DNA from: Mesodorylaimus sp. YZB2_4
Lineage: Eukaryota > Nematoda > Enoplea > Dorylaimida > Dorylaimidae
Direction of reading: 5' to 3'
Assembly: GCA_030248295.1 (NCBI GenBank)
Contig: JASANH010001488.1
Location: forward strand, 50,266-114,265
DNA length: 64,000 bases
The translations under genes were made by a program, and so were the position numbers. The notes beneath the pieces are model-generated. The model was not told where the DNA came from. It made no database searches and saw only the letters and a list, made by a program, of their open reading frames with translations. Positions 1,827 to 59,466 of this stretch are shown in pieces; within the stretch, counting starts at the first letter, position 1; every line of letters begins with the position of its first letter.

Positions 1827-2471
1827 TCGGCATCACGGACTCTGATCGTGAGCTGAGGCCGCTTCTATCTTCGAGCCTGTGCTCGCAGTGCCCGAAGTTT
1901 TTTTTTTTACAGCGTCAAATAATTTTTTGCTATCCATCTCCAGCCAATCCATTATTCCGAACTTTTCGATGTATCAAAGTATACACTTTTCAAAGATTAG
2001 GACCAGTATGCTACAGTAAGTGCTCAGGCTTTTCTACATCCTATTTGCCGAATAATGTCAAAGCAATGACAACGCCTGAAAAGAAACTGCTCCTCCTTTG
2101 CTGCCGATAAAACTTATTAAATAACTTACCACTTTAATAACTTTTCTGACGTCATAAAACAAAATCTAAACGGAAATTAAATTACCTCAAGCCAGACTTC
2201 AATATAGGAACATACTGTACAGCATGTACCGTAGGCCTGATTTCTTTACAGATACTGAGCCTTCAATACGTTCAGTACAGTACGTACAGTACGGACAATA
2301 TGGTCAGTGAAACCTTCATTTCTGACAGCATGATATCGAAAATGAAGTTAGTTATACAAAGCCTAGACCCCTTAGTATTGTCAAGCCCTGCGTTTCAAGC
2401 TGTACTCCCCGGCAGAGTGAACATGCCTGATATAAAGTCGGTTGTATTAATCATACATACTTGGCCAGGAA

Positions 2472-3821
2472 ATGAAGTTTTCGAAAACAAGCCTTTCCTT
2501 TTCATTTTCGAACTGTGGCAAAGTATTTAAAAAGTTAAGGGCAGCTCTAAGAAATGCAGACGTAAGACAAGTAGAAATGTACTGTAACGAGTCAATTTTT
2601 GATGCCATCCGTTCCAGCTGCTATTTGACAGCCCCACTCAAAATGGGGTGGACCCGCGACGAGGGTAGGTGCGAATGGACATGCGATGATGTCAAGTACT
2701 ATTGCGATCGACAAATCTGGTACGACGAGCTGATCACGTCTGGCATGCCGATCACTCACCCTCTCCAGTATAAGCTCTACCACGTCGGGTGTGTGTGCAA
2801 CCTGCTGCTGCTCCTGACCCTTCTATCTCGCACCCTGACTGGAACCACTTTCATGTTTCTCCGCGTCATGGCTTTTGTGCAACTGTGCTTAGGTCTGCTG
2901 TACTACGCCCACCCGGGAGCGGACCCTGATTTATCACATAATTGGGTATATAATATGATTTGGCCAGTTATAATGAAAGATATGATCGTGGCGGGAAGGT
3001 TCATGCTGAATATCCTCGCTGTATTCCTCACCCTTGATCGATTTCTAGCTGTTTGCAGCCATAACTTTTATTCTAGAATAAATCCGCGCAAATATTTTTT
3101 TGCTTCAGTTGCAATTTCATTTTTTATAAGTTTGATTGAAATGGAATCAATTTTCAGGTATGAATTTTTCGTTGATTTTAGACCGAATGAGAACAATATT
3201 TCTAGATATTATGTTGTCAAGAATCCGGTAGGGAATGTCATTTATTTATATTATATAGCCTATGCTGTTATAGCTATCAAGGTTATATTATTAAGCTGTA
3301 TGTTTATCATGGGGTCTGGGATTGTGGTGAAAATATTGCAGAGGGGTCGTCAATTATCGCGGATGCTCGGGAGTGACTCTGCTGTGGTCGAGTACAGGGA
3401 GATGTTGGGTCTGAGTCGATTCCAGATGGTGGACATGTTGGTCATGGTTGTCGACGTGGTGGTCACTCTCCTCATGGACCTGCAGCTCATAGTCGAAGTG
3501 CCGGGCGATTATCGAGGCACCTACTGCTCCATGTCTCACAACCTATATTCTTTGAACATGTACCTCGCTGGATGGCTCCTCGATGTCACCAAGGACCAGT
3601 TCTTGGCTTTGGAGCACGCAGAGTTATTCTTTATTTATTTGATATGTTTCAAGAAGTTTAGGCGTGCTTTTGTGGGTGTTGTCAAGACGGGGTTTGGTCG
3701 GGTTAGGAGACTGATTACGAAATCTGGCGCTAGTGGTGCCGCAAACACTGTAGAGAGCATGGTGCATGCAAAAGGAGTATCGGCTACACCAAATGTGATT
3801 TCAGTGACAGGGCATAAGTAA
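2472..3821 (+). CDS. Rhodopsin-like 7TM receptor, single exon
   Basis: A single open frame of 449 codons encodes a seven-helix membrane protein. Hydrophobic segments lie near residues 100-122, 126-146, 168-195, 208-228, 254-288, 318-343 and 359-393. Helix 3 ends in Asp-Arg-Phe (189-191), a variant of the DRY motif of class A GPCRs. The N-terminal part is cysteine-rich and has an Asn-Glu-Ser glycosylation sequon just after Met36. The C-terminal tail after helix 7 is basic. The start could be Met1 at 2472, four bases after a CCAG acceptor-like site, or Met36 at 2577. A usable polyadenylation signal lies at 3976. Base composition is odd: about 2930-3330 is AT-rich while both ends are GC-richer. 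The ligand is unknown; a neuropeptide or chemosensory role is inference only. Lack of introns is unusual for a worm GPCR. Confidence 0.8.
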   Translation: MKFSKTSLSFSFSNCGKVFKKLRAALRNADVRQVEMYCNESIFDAIRSSCYLTAPLKMGWTRDEGRCEWTCDDVKYYCDRQIWYDELITSGMPITHPLQYKLYHVGCVCNLLLLLTLLSRTLTGTTFMFLRVMAFVQLCLGLLYYAHPGADPDLSHNWVYNMIWPVIMKDMIVAGRFMLNILAVFLTLDRFLAVCSHNFYSRINPRKYFFASVAISFFISLIEMESIFRYEFFVDFRPNENNISRYYVVKNPVGNVIYLYYIAYAVIAIKVILLSCMFIMGSGIVVKILQRGRQLSRMLGSDSAVVEYREMLGLSRFQMVDMLVMVVDVVVTLLMDLQLIVEVPGDYRGTYCSMSHNLYSLNMYLAGWLLDVTKDQFLALEHAELFFIYLICFKKFRRAFVGVVKTGFGRVRRLITKSGASGAANTVESMVHAKGVSATPNVISVTGHK

Positions 3822-4033: not shown

Positions 4034-4104
4034 TGCGTCGGCCGGGAATCGAACCCGGGTCGCCCGCGTGGCAGGCGAGCATTCTACCACTGAACCACCG
4101 ACGC
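4034..4104 (-). tRNA. tRNA-Gly (anticodon GCC)
   Basis: The minus strand folds as a full cloverleaf: the 7-bp acceptor stem pairs GCGTCGG with CCGACGC, the A box reads TGGTTCAGTGG, the anticodon loop is CTGCCAC, and the B box is GGGTTCGATTCC. A TTTT tract follows the 3' end as a Pol III terminator. There is no intron. The gene lies downstream of the 7TM gene on the opposite strand. Confidence 0.95.
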
Positions 4105-10369: not shown

Positions 10370-10442
10370 TGTTTCCGGCCGGGATCGAACCGGCGACCTT
10401 GCGCGTGTGAGGCGCACGTGATAACCGCTACACCACGGAAAC
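10370..10442 (-). tRNA. tRNA-Val (anticodon CAC)
   Basis: The minus strand begins GTTTCCG, pairing with CGGAAAC at the 3' end. The A box reads GTGTAGCGGTTATC, the anticodon arm TGCGC-CTCACAC-GCGCA gives CAC, and the B box is GGTTCGATCCC. A TTTTT tract follows. It is nearly identical to the tRNA-Val at 26005 but for the anticodon and a few positions. Confidence 0.95.
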
Positions 10443-11124: not shown

Positions 11125-13326
11125 ATGGTTCATCGACGATCCTACGCTCTCATCCCGTTTCTCATGCACATTCTCGGCCAGTATCCACACGCGTGGTCGG
11201 TTCCAATCGACAACGCAGTGGAGGTGGAGCCACAGATCTCGTGCGGCCCGGGCTATATCGGGGTCACGTTTCTATTACGAAACACCTTCGAAGGGCACGT
11301 ATACGTCAAGAACCATTACAACGAGTCGCAATGTCGAAGTGATACCACGGGAAAACGTGCAGCCTCGATCACCATATCATTCAATACGTGTGGTGTTCAA
11401 AGGACGAGGTCGCTGAATCCGAAGGGCGTGTTCGTCAATACGGTCATTGTCATTACCTTCCATCCCAGGGTGAGTACGCTGGTGCCTCTGGCCGATATGC
11501 GGTCTTTGCTAATTGTCACTTTACGTTACAGCATTGCATCAGTGCCATCATAATAATGTGCAGGTCACTTTGTAGCTAGGCATGCATGCATGCATGTATA
11601 TATCAATCCATCCAGTAGCACCTAGCGATAGGATGTCCTGCTCAGGATATGCTCTCAGTGCCTAGGACTAAGATAGAAATACCTTGGTAGTGTGCTTACA
11701 CCCGACATTCCTGCACTCTCCTTGGCAAGAAGAGTCAGGATGTACGGTGTACCCTTGCGTGGAGTGTTAGTCCCAATTCCTTTGCTCACGGTCAGTCTCG
11801 GGGTGCCTTGATTACCAATCATCGTGGCTCTGAACTGAAATCAATGAAGCTGTGTTTTGCATCTCGGCTTGACAACAGTGTTGTTCGTTAATGGAGCGAT
11901 GTACCTGCACCAAGGGCTATGGATCAGGCAGCATTTATCTAAACGTGTACGGTGACACGCCAACAAGTCACCTTGATGTTCCGCTGCGCTTGACCAGAGT
12001 CGCCGGTCACCTGATCGTGACTGCAATGTTGACCCTGTCAATGGTCAGTCTCTGGCTCGGGGAGACACCATCAAGGAGTTTAAGCTAGCGTGTTACATAC
12101 CTTCCTTCTTCCAGTTCATCACAAAAGTGGACCGAGCCTACGCATTCCAATGTTTCTACATGGAGTCCGAGAAGACGGTGGCTGCCCAGTTGGACATATC
12201 CGAGCTAACCAGCGTTTTCCAAACTCAGCGTGTCCCCATGCCGGTTTGCAGATACGACGTGCTGGATGCGGCGCCACCAAACGGCCAACCGATCCGGTAT
12301 TCCATAGTTGGGCAACAAGTCTTCCACAGATGGACCTGCGATACCGATACCACCAACACGTTTTGCATGAATGTCAATTCGTGTTTCGTCTACGATGGAC
12401 ACGGCGATCAGGCACAACTTTTGGACACGGCCGGATGCGCTGTCGATCGATATCTGCTGCAGAATGTGGAATATACGACAGACCTAAGCGCAAGTAATGT
12501 CCTATTTTTACTCGCAGAACAATCACTTACTAAAACAGTCTCTATTTCAGTCAGGGAAGCGCATGTGTTCAAATTCGCTGACCGTGCTGCTGTCTATTTC
12601 CAATGCCAGATCGCTCTCACAATCAAAGAACCAGGCTCCAACTGTCCGCGCCCATCGTGTCCAGCACTGCCTATCAGTCCGAGTGGTGTTGGCACTAGTT
12701 CAGGAACAGGCGGCAGCGGAGCGAGCAAACCAGGTGGAACAAGTGCGAATGGGGGTAAAAGTGGTGAGCCGCTACCAACTACCGATCAAGCCTCCAAAAC
12801 AGACACGGGCCGACCTGCTGCGTCTACAGAAGTACCGACCACTACAACGTCCGGCCCATTCCGCACGACATCCAATGCATCATATCGAGGCCAGGATGAA
12901 GGTGAAAGTTCTGACCATCGCTCTGTGAACTTGAGGCATCGACACCGTAAGCAGCGCTCTTTGGATCATGGTCCAGGCGTGCCTTTAGGAAGTCAGGGAC
13001 CGGCGAGTAGAAGCCATGAACTGGGTGTGTGGGACGTTCGCGCTCCATCCATTGCTGTCTTCGATTTGGACGATAGCACAGCCATGGGTTTGAGGACGAA
13101 TCATACTCGCGACACGAACAGCATTGATCACGGGCTCCAAGCGACGGCGGACACTGCCAGTCCGATTCCAACAGAAACGAGCACAGATGCTCTTGAACAC
13201 CTCGACTATTGTCTCAGTGTACACGTGTTCGCACTACTGTTGGCCATGGCCATCACACCGACGTGCGCCTTGGCTCTGGTTTGTTTCCTGCGTTATATGC
13301 AAAGAGGATCACGAAAGTTGTATTAG
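11125..13326 (+). CDS. Cuticlin-like ZP-domain protein (nematode cuticle matrix)
   Basis: The exons are 11125-11469, 12115-12493 and 12551-13326, giving 499 residues. Residues 1 to about 24 form a signal peptide. A full ZP module follows, containing the cuticlin hallmarks NPKGVF, KVDRAY, QCFYMES, VPMPVCRYDVLD, HRWTCD and KFADRA...YFQCQI. A Gly/Ser/Thr-rich linker leads to a furin-type site RHRKQR (ends at residue 377), and a hydrophobic anchor precedes the short basic tail. This is the classic secreted, furin-released, cross-linked cuticle or alae component. The second intron (57 bases, GTAATG...TTTCAG) is a multiple of three without a stop. It would read through as a 19-residue insert, but family alignment (YPTDL..EAHV) argues it is spliced out. 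The start was chosen as the Met opening the signal peptide. Convergent with tub-1. Confidence 0.93.
12059..12098 (+). repeat. Dispersed repeat, copy 2 (first copy at 1788)
   Basis: The block GGGGAGACACCATC..GGAGTT.AAGCTAGCGTGTTACAT lies in the 3' part of the first cuticlin intron, ending 17 bases before the splice acceptor, and matches 1788-1826. Confidence 0.55.
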
Positions 13327-26004: not shown

Positions 26005-26077
26005 GTTTCCGTGGTGTAGTGGTTATCACGTGCGCTTTACACGCGCAAGGCCGCCGGTTCGATCCCGGCCGGAAACA
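26005..26077 (+). tRNA. tRNA-Val (anticodon TAC)
   Basis: It is a full cloverleaf starting GTTTCCG and ending CGGAAAC plus discriminator A. The anticodon arm TGCGC-TTTACAC-GCGCA gives TAC; the B box is GGTTCGATCCC. TTTT at 26081 would terminate Pol III. It is closely related to the CAC isoacceptor at 10370, suggesting duplication followed by an anticodon change. Confidence 0.95.
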
Positions 26078-29892: not shown

Positions 29893-30425
29893 TCATTCCC
29901 GACGTATAATAGGGGGCGATTGTAGACCCACTGTTTTCCGGTATGCTTGCTTGACCATGCGAATTAGTCGCTCGTAGATTCCCCCCCCCCCCTCCCCATA
30001 CAAGGAGCTTTCTCCACAATGAAATCCCACCGAATCCCGTTTTGCGCCGCAAATTTCTGAACTATGGCCGACTTGAAATTGCCACCATTGTCGGATAATA
30101 TCCGGTGGGGCTTTCCATACCTGGCCACGAATCGCCTGAGAACAAGGACTATTTGCTCGCCTGACATATCTACGATCACATCGAGGAAAATTGCCATGGT
30201 GGCCCTGCAGTTGGCGATGCATAGCCACTTCTTGACTATCCTTCTGTCCTTTTCCTTGACTACGACTGGTTTAAAGCAGTCGATTCCGACGTGGGACAAT
30301 GGCCTTGATGGTATCACTCGGGCGCCTGGCAAATTTGGTGATGGGGGCTCGCTTGAATTGGCCTCCATCATACCGGCGACAAATAAGGCAGCTTTGCAGG
30401 CATCGAAACACCTCAGACCGGCCAC
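29893..30425 (-). pseudogene. BEL/Pao integrase core fragment
   Basis: Overlapping minus frames carry the start of an rve integrase core: HVGIDCFKPV with a first acidic residue, then RATMAIFLDVIVDMSGEQ and SDNGGNFKSA holding the second Asp. A frame change near a run of G/C around 29985-30010 breaks it before the glutamate region. Confidence 0.85.
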
Positions 30426-31335
30426 ATTGTACCCAGTATCGCTGGCGAAATTGAGCCAGCGTCGTTGCGACCCCTGAATGCAGCATCCGTTGATGAATGT
30501 CTTCGATGATGAGTTTTGTAAACTTGGACCCTCGTGGCAGTAGTATTGGATTCTTTGCCTCCTCTGGAATCGCGGCGTTCTCTAATCGACCTTTGCACCG
30601 TATTATTCCCCTGGCGTCCAGCCACAGTGGGAGTTGACCACTGAGCCGAGCTTCGCCGCCACTTCCCAAAATACTGCTCTCCTTAACGAAATACTTCATC
30701 CGGACTGCCCTGGTCCACACTTGCTCCGCCTCTTGTACTTCCTCAGCTGTGATTTGATCGATGCGCCACCTAACCCCTCGCAGTCGTTTGCGAGCCCCAA
30801 TCTGCCGTTTGTCCAGTTTCTTATTGACCTTCGCGACAAAGCGAGTACACAAACTGGTGACCCTGATAAGCTTTTGGTAGCTCCCAAAACGATCTTCCTC
30901 GCACACTGTGCCAACCCATGGAAGGCTGTCGGCCGCTACCATTGTTGCCACCACCAGCAGTTGCACCTCGTTTTGACTGTCATCCTCTTCCTGGGTGACT
31001 TTTCCCATATCTGGCCATTGCTCTCGATCGAGTGCCAAGAAGCTTGGACCATGCCGCCATTGGTTGTTGCTGCATAAATCTTCAGCCGATCGCCCACGCG
31101 ATAGAATGTCAGCTGGGTTGCTCGAGATTGGCACATACCGGAATTGCAGCTGATCATCTTGTTCGATAGCCCTGATTCGATTCTCTTCAAAAAGTGGAAG
31201 TGGCTTGTTTGATCGTAACCGCTGCAGAACACATTGAGAGTCCGTCCAAACATTATTGCCACTGACTGATATCCTGATGCCATCGCGTACAAATTTGATT
31301 ATTCGTGCTCCAACTTGTACTGCCAGCAGCTCCAA
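30271..31335 (-). pseudogene. BEL/Pao RNase H to integrase zinc-finger segment
   Basis: This 354-codon open stretch is the longest intact piece. Near its start WTDSQCVLQRL belongs to the RNase H domain, followed by PADILSRG. Near the end comes the H2C2 finger of the integrase (IHQRMLHSG ... CLQSCLICRR). It runs out of frame just before the integrase core. Confidence 0.88.
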
Positions 31336-31406
31336 TCGTGGGATAGTTGGTTAGGGCCGTTTTCCTTTGTCCATACGCTTCGGCTTCATGCGACTTTTTG
31401 CGAAAA

Positions 31407-39887: not shown

Positions 39888-39903
39888 CTAGCATTCAATC
39901 AAA

Positions 39904-41393
39904 ATGAGAAGATTCTGCTTGGTGTTGATAACAATCGTGTGCATAAACGTGGCAAAATGTGCTTTATTATATCACCCTAAACGATCTTTGGTAAGATACT
40001 TTCGTTTTATACCATCTTGATAGTACCCAACGAATTCTTTTAAAAACGTTTAGAAGCGGTCAGTTTGTTTCATAGAAGCAACTGAAAAATCACTTTTTCT
40101 ATTTCAGTTTGTGAATGACTTTGACAATGAAAATAATCAATTCATAAATGAGAACGAATTCAAAAATGATCCGCCTACATCGACTGGCGATTTACCAGTT
40201 TGCTTCGAAACTGAACCATGTAAATTTGTGTTTGTCAAGAAAAATCCAAGAAATAATTTGCCTGTCAGAAAAACTATTCCGTCCTGGTGAGTACACAAAG
40301 ATGGTGTGTGTGAGTGGCAACTGTATGTAGAGACAATTTTTTCGGTGAGCACAATGGAAAGTCAAAATATTCGCTCCCTTGGCAAAGAAATTCAAGAATA
40401 TTAAGCCTATATTTTTTTGAATAGTTTGTGTTAGAGGAGGCATTTACACAGAAAGCGAAAATCAAGGATTTTCTAAGGTAACTTAAAACGAGATCATACC
40501 ATAAAAGTCTTTGCTTTTCGATCGAACACGATTATCTTTTTTCCATAAATATCTACTGAAAAATTCTTTGCTATTGTGATAATAAAGCAAACCACCGCGG
40601 CCTTCCTTCTAAGCTCCTTCTTTTATCTCACGTCTTTCAGGATTTTTGCACTCGCGGCTCACTCGTGAGTGCCAGCAATTCTTTATCTCTCAGTCAGATA
40701 AAAACAGATCTCGGCGTCCCCGAAGCCTTCAAGTCCTAAGTGACGCAAAATGTTAACATGCCTGTCCTGCGTGGTTTCCACTAGCTCCAGTTCTTATCGG
40801 GTATAGCATAAAAAACTGGCTGAACTCCGCGGGAAATATAAAGGGCATTTTCTGCCTGATCTATAAACAGCTGTTTGGCAGAATCCTTGGACGACCAGGA
40901 AGTAAAAATAAAAACTTGTTTTTACCACTCAAGTATTTTGTAGTTCTATTTTATATGAAAGCGTTATCAGAGATCAAAGTTCGGAAGTGCTTTTCCAATA
41001 TGACCTGTCTGGTCGCCTTATCGAATCAAGATACCATGTACTGCACAGGTGCTCAAAATGCGTTGATTGTAGACGGGTAGCTGTCTTTCAAACACGTGTC
41101 AACTGCTTGGTTAGCGCAAGTTGGCATACAAGTATGTCACAGCCGTCTCATATGTAACCTTTCCCAGGTGTCAATGCAACTTGTCGCGATCTGAAGAATG
41201 CATTCAAGTCGTCTATGACCGAAAAAGGAAAATGGAAATTTTTCGATGCGAAACTTTGGAACAACAAAAACGAAGGCAGCAGCAGGCGTTGCGCAGCGAT
41301 CGCAGAAGACGGCATCATCACGGTCTCACTGAGAGGCAATTAAGATGGATCGAAGGATCGCAAATGTCCAGACAAAGCCTGATGGATAATTGA
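39904..41393 (+). CDS. Small secreted six-cysteine protein
   Basis: Three exons, 39904-39990, 40108-40286 and 41168-41393, join in frame (GTAAGA, TTTCAG, GTGAGT, CCCAG) to give 163 residues. Residues 1-20 are a signal peptide (MRRFCLVLITIVCINVAKCA). The mature part starts acidic and Asn-rich, then carries six cysteines at 61, 67, 90, 92, 100 and 116. Their pattern is C-x5-C-x22-C-x-C-x7-C-x15-C with a Trp before the CxC (SWCQC). The C-terminal third is charged and Gln/Arg-rich with a polybasic stretch (DRRRRHHH) that could be processed. AATAAA lies at 41522. I do not recognise the family; a growth-factor-like, neuropeptide-like or effector role is possible. Intron 2 (881 bases) may hide nothing, since phase is kept without it. 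Confidence 0.75.
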
Positions 41394-42409
41394 AAATCTT
41401 GTACCTCGCTATGTAATTTTGTTCTCGCTGGTTGTGCGGTCGCTATTGTATGCTTTGACTTGGATCTTTTAGGTTTTGCTGGCTGATAACAGTCAAGTGT
41501 GCAGTGCACCTGTGCGATCACAATAAACCCGGTTGCTACGTACTTACTCTGCCGCCAAGCATGTCAACTCAAATGTCATTATGGACTCGACAAAAAAAAT
41601 CTTCGTTGGGGTTTGATCAGCCAAACGCCGACAGAAATACTTTTTCCGCGTCTGCCGCTTTCGGAAACTTCTTTGCCTGCTCTTGTTTCACTTTTTAAAT
41701 ACTTTCTGTTGTATTTCATGGAAAATTCTTCGTAAAAAACTAAAAAGCTGAATCTCAAACCAGCGCAGTTTCCTTGGCGGGTGGCACGCAGAAATCAGAA
41801 TAATCAGTGTATTCGAAGAAATGCATGCACTCGTGGAGTGAAGGATTCTCCGCTATGATCGAATCTCGAAAGACAGAAGTACAGTAAGTATAAACAATGC
41901 GGATTCACGTGTCCGAAACGCCCATGCGGGGGGGGGGGGAATGTTTACTCAAAATTCCAGTTTCTGATTATTAATCTTTGCCACATTCTTCAACTTTGTA
42001 CCACCCTCTGGCACGTGTTTTCATGCTCCAGTGTTCGAAAAAGGGTGATTTATATTTGAGAACATCCGGCCGCCGAAAAAACCGCCATCATTTTGATAAG
42101 TTAAGGTCGTTGACGTCGTTCGGTTGGTTGGACTTATTTACGATTGATTGACGAGCATGATCTCTGGCCAGCAGCATGAATTCCTGGCCACCTGCTGATT
42201 TCTAAATAAACATGCTGAGGGGTGCAGGCACACGGGCAGCTTTGATGAACTGCAATAACCGCACAAAAATGTGAATGCGGGGTGCAAAGGGTGCAACACT
42301 GCCTCCGGGCAGGAAATGCATCTTACATAAATCACATGCGCGTAAATTTTGTTAAATAATTTGCCCAACATGGCCGAAATCCCATCAAGTTTTTGATCGC
42401 TTTAGCAGA
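41394..42409. other. No supported gene
   Basis: Includes the AATAAA at 41522 of the preceding gene and a poly-G tract at about 41928-41939. The frames are short. Confidence 0.4.
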
Positions 42410-52264: not shown

Positions 52265-54584
52265 ATGTTCAGTTCTAAAGTAGTGGTTATAACAGGTAAG
52301 AAATGTCTCTGGTGCTGTATATTTCGTGAAAGGGGCATGTTTATGGCCCCTTAGACCGCTGGGCATTGGATACCCGACCCGAGAGTCTATGATCCAGATG
52401 TGGTGTAATCATGAACTTTCCTGGGGGTAAAAACATCCCATAATTCTTCCTGAAACGCATCGTACAATACTTCATCAAAAAAGCCAGCTTAATATCGTGC
52501 TTGTGTTCCTAGCTTGCTGACTCAAGAAGTTCTGAGATCACAGACAGGCCAAAGTTTTTTACACGCCGATTCGACTTTGTCATTGAGGAGTATCTCCCCA
52601 ACCGATTGGCTCGTTCTTTTGTTTAGTTATTTATTCGAACAGAAAACGCACAGAATCCGAAATTATGTTACAATCACAAAACCTTGAGCCGTGGTTGGAG
52701 AGTTAAGCTCCAGGAGTACTTTTTCAACATAACCTTCACATGAAATGACTGCCTTTATCCATGTAATTCTGTAAAGTTGATTCGACTATATATTTTAAAA
52801 GTTAGAGTCTGGCACCAAAAATGGTTAATATAGAGAGTGAACCCTTACAGTAATCTCTCGTGCGTTTCTTGCTATTTATGGGCTGTTCTGCTGATCGCAG
52901 CTCAAACGCATCCAACAGAAAAGTAAAACTTCTCTCTGTAAAGTGGATGACAACAGTTGCACAGCTAATGGCTCGATATCATTCTAAGTCATCACTTTCG
53001 TAGACATTTTGTACCACTGCATGAGGAAAACTAAGCCTCGACGATTTATTCAATGTAGTAGTACTGCTACGACCTTTTCCTTGCGCATGGTGTACCCGCA
53101 TCCTACTTACGTATCGGTTCTTGTCTTGTTGAGGTGTTTCAGCAATGGGCCGTAAAGGTCCACTGTTGTTAGTCGTCCGTTTCTGTAAGGACCGCACCCA
53201 TAGAACGGAGGGGGTATCAAAATGGCTGCCAACATGGAGGGACAACGCTTCATTTGGCACGTCATTTCTAAGCATACTTTCTAATTTCTTCTCGCTGGAG
53301 AGAGGAACACTTTTTAACCCGATTTGTCGAGTACCTGTGCGAAGTTGGGCACGGGTTACAAAACGACATTTTGCGCTGAGGAAATTATAAAAAAGAACAA
53401 CACCTGCCATTGTGCTGTTGCAGGCGCCAGTGTGGGCATCGGAGCTGGCACGGCCATCCAGTTCGCCAAGGAGGGTGCATTTGGAATAGTCATCCACGGG
53501 CGCAATGAAAGCGGGCTGCAGGACGTAAAAAGACAGTGCGAAGAAGCTGGAAACGGAAAGGTCAAGGTGAGCTTCGTCGTAGTCAGTGGTACAGAATGTA
53601 AATTCTTTTGCTCCTCATTTTATTTGGCTTTGACTCTTTCTGTCAAATATTTTTTAAGAGAAACTCTTCTTCAGGCAGCCGGATACAGGGCCCATCTCGC
53701 CTTTTTAGGTCCACATATGTGTCGGTGATATCACCAAGGCGGAGAGCCGTGAGAAAATCATTAATGAGACCATCAAGGAGTTTGGTCGTATTGATATTTT
53801 GGTAAGCACTTTTAGGGCTATTATTTTTTTATCTATTTAGTTCCTTACAGTTCAACAATGCTGGCATCATTAGCCGCACACCAGCCAGTGAGTGTCCCAT
53901 GGCCGACTATGACAGCATATTCGATGTCAACCTTCGATCAGTTGTGGCCTTGACCAACCTGGCTGTTCCTTATTTGATCAAAACCCAAGGCAACGTGGTC
54001 AACAACTCCTCGGTTCTGGGTTCCATCGCTAACCCGCTCTTCGTCGCCTATTGCATGACCAAGGCTGCCTTGGATCACTACACCAGATGCTTGGCTGTGG
54101 ACCTGGGACCAAAGGGGGTCCGAGTCAATTGCATCAAGTACTGCATGGGGATTTTTCTGGTCTTTCTTCACTCGCTAATTTTTATGCGATTTTTAGGCCC
54201 GGCCTGATTGATGACACAATAATATTTAGCCGTTTAGGCTGGTTCAAATCGGAAGATGAGAGAAAGGTAACTGTTTAAAGCAGAATCTGTATTGAATGAT
54301 CCATTTTATTTAAATTTTACCAGTAGGTGGCCCTTACGATTTTTGTAATTTTAACTCATGCATTCCTATCTTGATCTCGATTTATAAGACATCGTTTTCT
54401 TCTCGATTTTTAGCATTTTTACGACGACTTTGTCAAGTCATACCCACTCGGACCCCGCAGAGGTACACTCGAAGAAGTGGCGAATTTGGTCTTGTTCCTG
54501 GCTTCGGACAAAGCCAGCTTTCTCACCGGAGTATGCGTCCCGGTCGACGGCGGTCACTCCAAGGTGGCCTCCAGCATCGCTTGA
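52265..54584 (+). CDS. Short-chain dehydrogenase/reductase (classical SDR)
   Basis: Six exons join in frame: 52265-52295, 53424-53566, 53709-53801, 53851-54137, 54197-54266 and 54414-54584, giving 264 residues. Exon 1 is only 31 bases and supplies the first beta strand ([10 protein letters not shown]). The junction completes the cofactor motif TGASVGIG (10-17). FNNAG (90-94), Ser143 and YxxxK (Tyr156, Lys160) complete the catalytic set, and VPVDGGHS near the C-terminus is the usual final strand. It is an NAD(P)-dependent oxidoreductase of the worm DHS or 3-oxoacyl-reductase-like group; the substrate cannot be told. Intron 1 (1.1 kb) contains spurious antisense frames. The other introns are 49-147 bases. 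All GT-AG. Confidence 0.93.
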
Positions 54585-57515: not shown

Positions 57516-58449
57516 ACAAATTCTCGATTTTCTTTTACACCACCAGCTTTCTGCGCTGTGCTTGAATGTCTAGAGGTAGCCATCGCCTTGTCAAGCGAGC
57601 CTTGGACCACTAGTGAACGGTTGCCTCCAGCTTGTTCCGGGTCTGCCTCTTATCGCGTGACAAAGTTGGGAGGATTCACCAGTTTCTTTCAGCACTCCCA
57701 TGATCCGGATGTGCAGAGGGGTAGTTCCTGCACCGCACATCCGGATCATGGGAGTGCGCTGCTCTGATGTAAGAGTAACAAGGAAGAAGCCAAAGACGAA
57801 GACGCAAGAGACACACCTCGTTGCGTACAATACTTGCAAACTAGCTAAGTCTGAATAAAAATGGAAATAATATCGGTGCCGGCTGTCAGCATATTAAAAC
57901 GCTCAGAATGACATGTCTCGAGAAGTGATATTCGACATCCCTGATTCGACATTCTTATATCTTCTGGATACTGTCTGATGAGCTCCTACATAGTCCAAAA
58001 TTTAGTGATTTCCTCTGACTGAAGATGCACGGGATCGAAGGTGCTCCTCTCTTTCCTAACATTCTTTATTTACGTAATGCATGGCCATTGGACGTTTCAG
58101 TACATATTTTGTTAGCTAATCTATGATGTGAGAAGCTGTTCGTCATCTCGGCATGACTTGGCAGAAAAGCAAGTCTTTCAACTAAACGGGTCCACAACGA
58201 CGATCTCGACTCTGTCACTTATCACGCATATGGACAAAACTACCTTCCCTGTGCGCCTCACAGCGACATCCTGCATACCTATTTAACACTGCCCACATCG
58301 AAGCATAAGGATACGTGAAATCATTAGTACCTAGGGAAGACCAGCAGACTAGCTGGCTTAGACTCCTATGCGTGCTATATTTATCGAATAAGCCAGTCTT
58401 GAAGTTCGAAGTCCTGACAATTTAGTGGTATCAGTTCTGGTGGGCAGCC
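57516..58449. other. Upstream region of second 7TM gene
   Basis: Contains the hairpin at 57692-57757. No other gene, and no obvious promoter element, was seen before the receptor start. Confidence 0.4.
57692..57757. repeat. Perfect 23-bp inverted repeat, 20-nt loop
   Basis: 57692-57714 (GCACTCCCATGATCCGGATG...) is exactly complementary to 57735-57757. The loop is 57715-57734. The size is close to a small-RNA hairpin, but perfect pairing also fits a young inverted duplication. Confidence 0.85.
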
Positions 58450-59466
58450 ATGCAAAGCAACAACCAAAGCATTGGACAGGACCCGGACATTGTGTCCCCC
58501 GAAATACCTTCATTGTATACCATATCCATCGCGGTGCTGTTACTGCTGGCATCTGTCGGCGGCACCGTCTGCAGTGTGCTCTCTTTCGTCATCTTTCACA
58601 AAATACAGGTGTTTCGTGATTTGCCGACGCAACCGCTTTTGCAGGCTTTATTTGTAACCCAGTTTATCAAAAATGTGTTTTCTGATCTCGTGCAGGTCAT
58701 TTATATGCTTTTGGCCAAATATGTAGGGGAAGCGATTTTTGTACTTTGTAAGCTTAGCTGCTTTATTTTGTCTTTTACACTTGTCACACTGTACTGGATT
58801 CATTTTTCCATGTCGGCCATGTATTTGATGAGTAGACGAGGTTATAATTTTTATTTTTCTAACAAGAATGCAATCGTTGTGTGCTTGACGTGCTCGGCTG
58901 TTGTCAATGGGTTCTTGGCTGCAACTCTAGGTTTTGTGTTCACTTATGGAGAAGAGGAGTCAAACTGGCTGTTTCGTGTGAATTTCTGGAATGTTTGGTT
59001 GGCGACAAATAATTCTGTTTTTGTAGAAGTAGGTTCTATTTGTGCACCCGTTATTGTTATCCTTTTTATTAAACTAAGCTTATTAGTAAGTCCGGGCAAT
59101 TTTCCTCTCTTGAACGCCCAAGCTAGTATATTTCGCTCCTTTGAGTTGAGCTTTATAATAACCTTGGCCACTCATTTACCTTTCCTCGTTTTTTTAATCA
59201 TTGGAAGCCAGAGTGAAGTCCCTGCTTTGTTGTTTCCTGTGGCTGTTCTAGTGGCAAGTTGTATTGGTATTCTGAATACTGTGTCAATAGTGATTTATAA
59301 CCCATCGTTTCGTGATGTGTTCCTCTTTATTTTTCGAGTGGCTTCTTGGAGCGAAATGGAATCGGCGCTTCAGAATCGACAAAGCAGAAGATATTATATC
59401 GGGGCCAGGTATTCGCGACGGCAACAACGGGAAGAAGCAGCGTTAGTTGAATTTGCTAAACAGTGA
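58450..59466 (+). CDS. 7TM chemoreceptor-like GPCR, single exon
   Basis: A 338-residue single-exon frame starts at ATG 58450. Seven hydrophobic segments lie near residues 22-48, 61-90, 93-127, 140-165, 188-212, 228-252 and 255-286. The N-terminus has sequons (NNQS region). Helix 3 carries a cysteine (Cys100) and ends without a DRY motif (LMSRRG). Helix 7 ends with an Asn-Pro-Ser-Phe-Arg-Asp turn, as in rhodopsin-like receptors. The tail is rich in Arg and Gln (RRQQREE). This resembles the divergent chemosensory or peptide receptor families of worms. I cannot assign a subfamily. Lack of introns matches the other receptor at 2472. Confidence 0.82.
   Translation: MQSNNQSIGQDPDIVSPEIPSLYTISIAVLLLLASVGGTVCSVLSFVIFHKIQVFRDLPTQPLLQALFVTQFIKNVFSDLVQVIYMLLAKYVGEAIFVLCKLSCFILSFTLVTLYWIHFSMSAMYLMSRRGYNFYFSNKNAIVVCLTCSAVVNGFLAATLGFVFTYGEEESNWLFRVNFWNVWLATNNSVFVEVGSICAPVIVILFIKLSLLVSPGNFPLLNAQASIFRSFELSFIITLATHLPFLVFLIIGSQSEVPALLFPVAVLVASCIGILNTVSIVIYNPSFRDVFLFIFRVASWSEMESALQNRQSRRYYIGARYSRRQQREEAALVEFAKQ

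Follow-up and report, generated by a model that had tools for sequence, protein, structure and literature searches.

Many secreted nematode proteins have no assigned domain. Nematodes secrete many small cysteine-rich protease inhibitors, and many secreted cysteine-rich proteins are used in their extracellular matrices. Small secreted domain-less proteins have been described in C. elegans (PMC3534327, in the accessible part of that paper), and the CS-alpha-beta peptides and the diapausins are known as six-cysteine antimicrobials of nematodes and arthropods. In the accessible part of PMC10506718, the diapausin genes were reported at about 9 per nematode genome, and five antimicrobial peptide groups taken together had a mean number of genes per genome of 98 in free-living, 26 in animal-parasitic and 29 in plant-parasitic nematodes. 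The locus described here lies in a window, which is the whole stretch of 64,000 nucleotides that was analysed, and on the grounds of its sequence it is a real nematode gene and one of at least three genes of a probably secreted six-cysteine family in the same genome.

The window gene was found to lie on the plus strand and to contain three exons. Exon 1 (39904..39990) encodes 29 residues, which include the signal-like N-terminus and a Lys-Arg pair (K26-R27), and ends in phase 0, followed by intron 1 (39991..40107; 117 bases, GT-AG, phase 0). Exon 2 (40108..40286) contains an acidic/Asn-rich linker, the first and second core cysteines and the block leading to the Trp codon (TG-G), followed by intron 2 (40287..41167; 881 bases, GT-AG), which lies in phase 2 inside the Trp codon of the WCxC motif. 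Exon 3 (41168..41393) contains the CxC, the fifth cysteine, a YD stretch, the sixth cysteine and a polybasic tail, followed by the stop codon TGA. In-frame splicing of the three exons gave a coding sequence of 492 bases including the stop and a protein of 163 residues; the three exons and the 163 residues were exactly as claimed in the preliminary description. The stop-to-stop frame of the ATG opens at 39892 and has no earlier Met. A possible poly-A signal AATAAA was found on the plus strand at 41522..41527, 129 bases past the stop, and is weak alone because the window contains 102 AATAAA. This number, counted on both strands, exceeds the 62.5 expected and was reached by 0 of 100 shuffles.

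The TTTACAG directly 5′ of the ATG was considered as a site of SL1 trans-splicing and this was found to be unsupported, as no SL1 spliced leader was present in the whole genome within two mismatches, despite the abundance of cuticle collagens. The nematode cuticle-collagen N-terminus family was matched 133 times in the genome (145 Mb, 1067 contigs) and not once in the 14 control genomes, by which the genome was taken for that of a nematode. The absence of SL1 is perhaps explained by a different leader in the lineage, or by a gap in the assembly or its masking.

Several other features were found in the window. The plus strand contained a piece of a cuticlin-type ZP gene at 11977-13323 (CUT_C, E 7e-52) and a gene for a short-chain dehydrogenase, split into two or more pieces, at 53318-54204 (adh_short in two ORFs), and a BEL/Pao-type retroelement fragment was present on the minus strand at 30274-31350 (Integrase_H2C2 1.5e-9, Peptidase_A17 1.1e-4). 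The tRNAs, each found by ARAGORN and Rfam, were tRNA Gly at 4034-4104 on the minus strand and two tRNA Val, at 10370-10442 on the minus and 26005-26077 on the plus strand. Two long ORFs on the plus strand, at 2451-3818 and 58426-59463, had by eye a multi-membrane-spanning look; one of them gave a sub-threshold 7tm_1 match (E 0.0097) and the other no Pfam match at E 0.01.

The window protein was found to contain nine cysteines, of which those at positions 5, 13 and 19 lie within the hydrophobic N-terminal part and those at 61, 67, 90, 92, 100 and 116 form the core. The core spacing is C-x5-C-x22-C-x-C-x7-C-x15-C, so that the spacing and the WCxC core given in the preliminary description were matched exactly at residues 61-116. 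Its clear signal peptide was borne out as a signal-like N-terminus, with a 12-residue hydropathy maximum of 2.88 at residue 5, which is typical of a signal peptide; the call rests on hydropathy, and the extent of about residues 1-19 was set by eye. Inspection of the 163 residues by eye showed a single six-cysteine module and no internal repeats. An Asn-Leu-Ser sequon (residue 93) was found within the core of the window copy only, whereas the protein of the sister gene C26 contained one in its tail and that of the sister gene C16 none. Basic pairs were frequent in all three proteins.

The two sister genes are dispersed in the genome, on contigs C26 and C16. The sister gene G000:C26 is complete and lies on the minus strand, with three exons (462290-462198, 462107-461920 and 461819-461597) encoding 167 residues. 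The sister gene G000:C16 is likewise complete and lies on the plus strand, with three exons (204172-204279, 204527-204693 and 205429-205546) encoding 130 residues. In the protein search of the whole genome, exon 2 of the window gene matched C26 with E 4.4e-12 and 68% identity over query residues 53-90, and exon 3 matched the C26 locus weakly, with E 0.10, and 0.095 in the reciprocal genome search. In the genome searches the C26 protein as query reached C16 at E 0.025, and C16 as query reached C26 at E 0.0021 with its core and at 0.013 with its full length. The window and C16 genes did not match each other in these searches and C16 was joined via C26. By E-value the links of C16 are weak, and its membership is suggested by the exon order, the cysteines, the KR and both intron phases taken together. 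The order common to C16 is a hydrophobic exon 1 with KR, an exon 2 with C-x5-C and IPSW, and an exon 3 with CxC-x5-C-x15-C.

Both predicted introns were found in all three genes, the one in phase 0 at one or two residues past the KR and the other in phase 2 in the Trp codon. Exon 1 of the sister genes is of the same kind as in the window gene and ends 2 residues after the KR in C26 and 1 residue after it in C16. Intron 1 has the matching place and phase 0 with lengths of 117 bases in the window gene, 90 in C26 and 247 in C16, and intron 2 has the same Trp codon and phase 2 with lengths of 881, 100 and 735 bases, respectively. Intron 1 of the window gene aligned to that of C26 with a score of 7.0 (shuffled maximum 3.5, above 50 of 50 shuffles), a likeness for which the splice ends and the composition in common may account.

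The cysteine spacing was found to be 5-22-1-7-15 in the window gene, 5-22-1-5-15 in C26 and 5-21-1-5-15 in C16, and the pattern C-x5-C-x(21,22)-C-x-C-x(5,7)-C-x15-C with IPSW before the third cysteine, having been defined from the three intact genes, is present in 3 of 3. The conservation of the spacing that was looked for at the outset has thus been found among three genes within one genome. The alignment of the three proteins contained 27 invariant columns, including the six cysteines, EPC, IPSWCxC, YD and the KR after the hydrophobic N-terminus. The sister genes differ from the window gene by the presence of x5 instead of x7 between the fourth and fifth cysteines, by another linker and by another tail.

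The core of the window protein was found to have 37 of 65 residues identical to that of C26, with pN 0.25 and a saturated pS of 0.99, and the differences by codon position were 19, 19 and 40 over the 65 codons (P 1.5e-5). Between the window and C16 cores 24 of 63 residues were identical (pN 0.43, pS 0.99; third-position P 0.0098), and between the C26 and C16 cores 29 of 63 (pN 0.39, pS 0.73), with a third-position P of 0.067 that is not significant alone. In the comparison of the window protein with C26, the alignment score of the core (z 24.4) was reached by 0 of 500 shuffles and that of the N-terminus up to the KR (z 3.3) by 2 of 500, followed by the linker (z -1.6) with 489 of 500 and the tail (z -0.8) with 392 of 500 shuffles as high. 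The codon pattern indicates that the window and C26 core is under purifying selection, and as the linker and the tail are no better than shuffles, the selection acts on the module and leaves linker and tail free. The polybasic tail, which the preliminary description had listed after the cysteines, is present at the C-terminus of the window copy and missing from both sister genes, and the C16 protein stops 13 residues past its last cysteine. With the shuffle result for the tail, it was therefore kept as a trait of one copy and rejected as a functional feature.

A relic exon 2 of the same family was found at C16:201047-201199, some 3 kb upstream of the intact C16 gene; it has lost both its second cysteine and its Trp, which indicates that members of this family do decay. 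No other intact member was found in the genome searches with all three proteins, which gave the three loci, the relic and two weak single-stretch matches. Of the latter, the match at C4 (E 0.109) somewhat resembles the start of the six-cysteine module and was rejected because it contains C-x2-C instead of C-x5-C and spans, by eye, an exon-intron edge of a seemingly different gene. The match at C606 (E 0.761) was rejected because the matched stretch contained no cysteine block, a loose exon-3-like pattern being present elsewhere in the locus. Loose exon-2 or exon-3 cysteine spacings arise by chance in the scanned loci, so spacing alone is no proof of relationship. The genome search ranks the best candidates only and exon by exon, and the copy number of three is therefore a lower bound.

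No Pfam family was found over the cut-off for the window, C26 and C16 proteins, nor when the cores of the window and C26 proteins were scanned by themselves. The single sub-threshold match covered window residues 23-53, outside the core, and its 13.1 bits (E 0.11) fell short of the cut-off of 27. Among the PDB sequences the best E was 0.33 with phmmer and 0.94 with a two-sequence profile, and a three-sequence profile gave no match up to E 10. The view that the protein belongs to no known family has accordingly held against Pfam and the PDB sequences. The prokaryote contigs and the viral contigs contained 17 pattern matches each, none of which was upheld by tblastn. The short peptide strings of the core were found in none of the papers searched, and the broader literature searches returned no recognisable description of a secreted six-cysteine IPSWCxC family. 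None of the spacings that we take to be those of EGF, Kunitz, ShKT, TIL, Kazal and WAP modules fits the six-cysteine module. The defensin-type CS-alpha-beta peptides presumably have a C-x3-C ... C-x-C core, which the three genes do not fit, as C-x3-C is absent among the six core cysteines in all of them. The novelty of the family is claimed against Pfam, the PDB sequences and the searched papers, and public nematode proteomes may well contain it among their unnamed hypothetical proteins.

The best reading, to which we give a probability of about 0.5, is that of a family with few copies whose products are secreted, rich in disulfides and perhaps processed by a convertase, and serve as ligands or binding proteins. 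The signal peptide, at about residues 1-19, would be taken off in the ER, and the six cysteines would pair as three disulfides, making residues 58-121 a compact module some 60 residues long. The conserved Lys-Arg just past the signal peptide may be a site at which a proprotein convertase cuts; a cut so near to the signal peptide would release a very short propeptide, and basic pairs are frequent in these proteins in any case, both of which count against processing. The mature protein would then consist of the module, a flexible linker and a copy-specific tail, and would be released outside the cell and bind an extracellular partner; it would most likely be a ligand in signalling, or a modulator of such a ligand. 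A ligand is one among several roles possible for such a protein, and the sequence does not decide among the ligand, antimicrobial and host-interaction roles that had been proposed for it. The few copies and the constrained core speak rather for a ligand or binding protein, as a ligand would be expected to show them more than immune or effector expansions. The fuller proposal, that extracellular ligands rich in disulfides form a nematode family not described before, with a six-cysteine fold of its own, a receptor yet to be found and few diverged copies in each genome kept by strong selection on the module, is tentative.

That the gene is an annotation illusion, in which three open stretches merely happen to splice together, or else a pseudogene, is scarcely credible. 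The decayed relic exon 2 would fit such a reading, whereas the window copy contains no stop or frame break, its third-position excess against C26 is that of a constrained core, and the whole structure is repeated at two other loci, which together with the exon 2 match to C26 leads to the rejection of a chance gene model. It is doubtful that the protein is a secreted antimicrobial or host-interaction protein, acting as a cationic peptide that is stabilised by disulfides and secreted onto microbes or into a host. The signal-like N-terminus, the richness in cysteine, the many basic residues and the strongly polybasic tail of the window copy are consistent with this role, but the two sister genes do not have that tail and the core does not contain the C-x3-C that we take to mark the defensin-type peptides. 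The few genes and constrained core are also unlike the larger and variable antimicrobial sets of nematodes, an argument that is weak because the lifestyle of the species is not established and single antimicrobial groups can be small.

A secreted protease inhibitor with a basic P1 residue in the loop between the second and third cysteines (PVRKTIPSW) is unlikely. The module is small and cysteine-rich and the PVRKTIPSW is identical in the window and C26 copies, but the loop of C16 differs (HGRMYSFVLIPSW) though the scaffold is retained, which argues against a canonical inhibitor, and neither the assumed Kunitz, TIL, Kazal and WAP patterns nor a Pfam match over the cut-off speaks for one. A structural or matrix component of the cuticle, the eggshell or the pharynx, cross-linked via its cysteines, is improbable; such use of secreted cysteine-rich proteins is common in nematodes as noted above, but the protein contains one six-cysteine module with no internal repeats by eye.

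If the members are indeed ligands, the family would represent a new extracellular signal, and if they are not, it would still be a module missing from Pfam. The defined cysteine framework, the three diverged copies and the common introns are enough for a profile, an orthologue search and a gene-removal test in model nematodes. Compared with the described systems, the family is like the CS-alpha-beta and diapausin antimicrobials of nematodes and arthropods in being small, probably secreted and with six or more cysteines, as far as these are covered in the accessible part of PMC10506718; the spacing that we take for CS-alpha-beta peptides differs, and in Pfam nothing was found over the cut-off. 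With the small secreted domain-less proteins of C. elegans, as given in the accessible part of PMC3534327, it shares the signal-like N-terminus, the small size and the absence of a Pfam domain. The precursors of neuropeptides and peptide hormones are marked by a signal peptide, convertase sites and a released active peptide, and in all three genes a KR was found behind the N-terminus.
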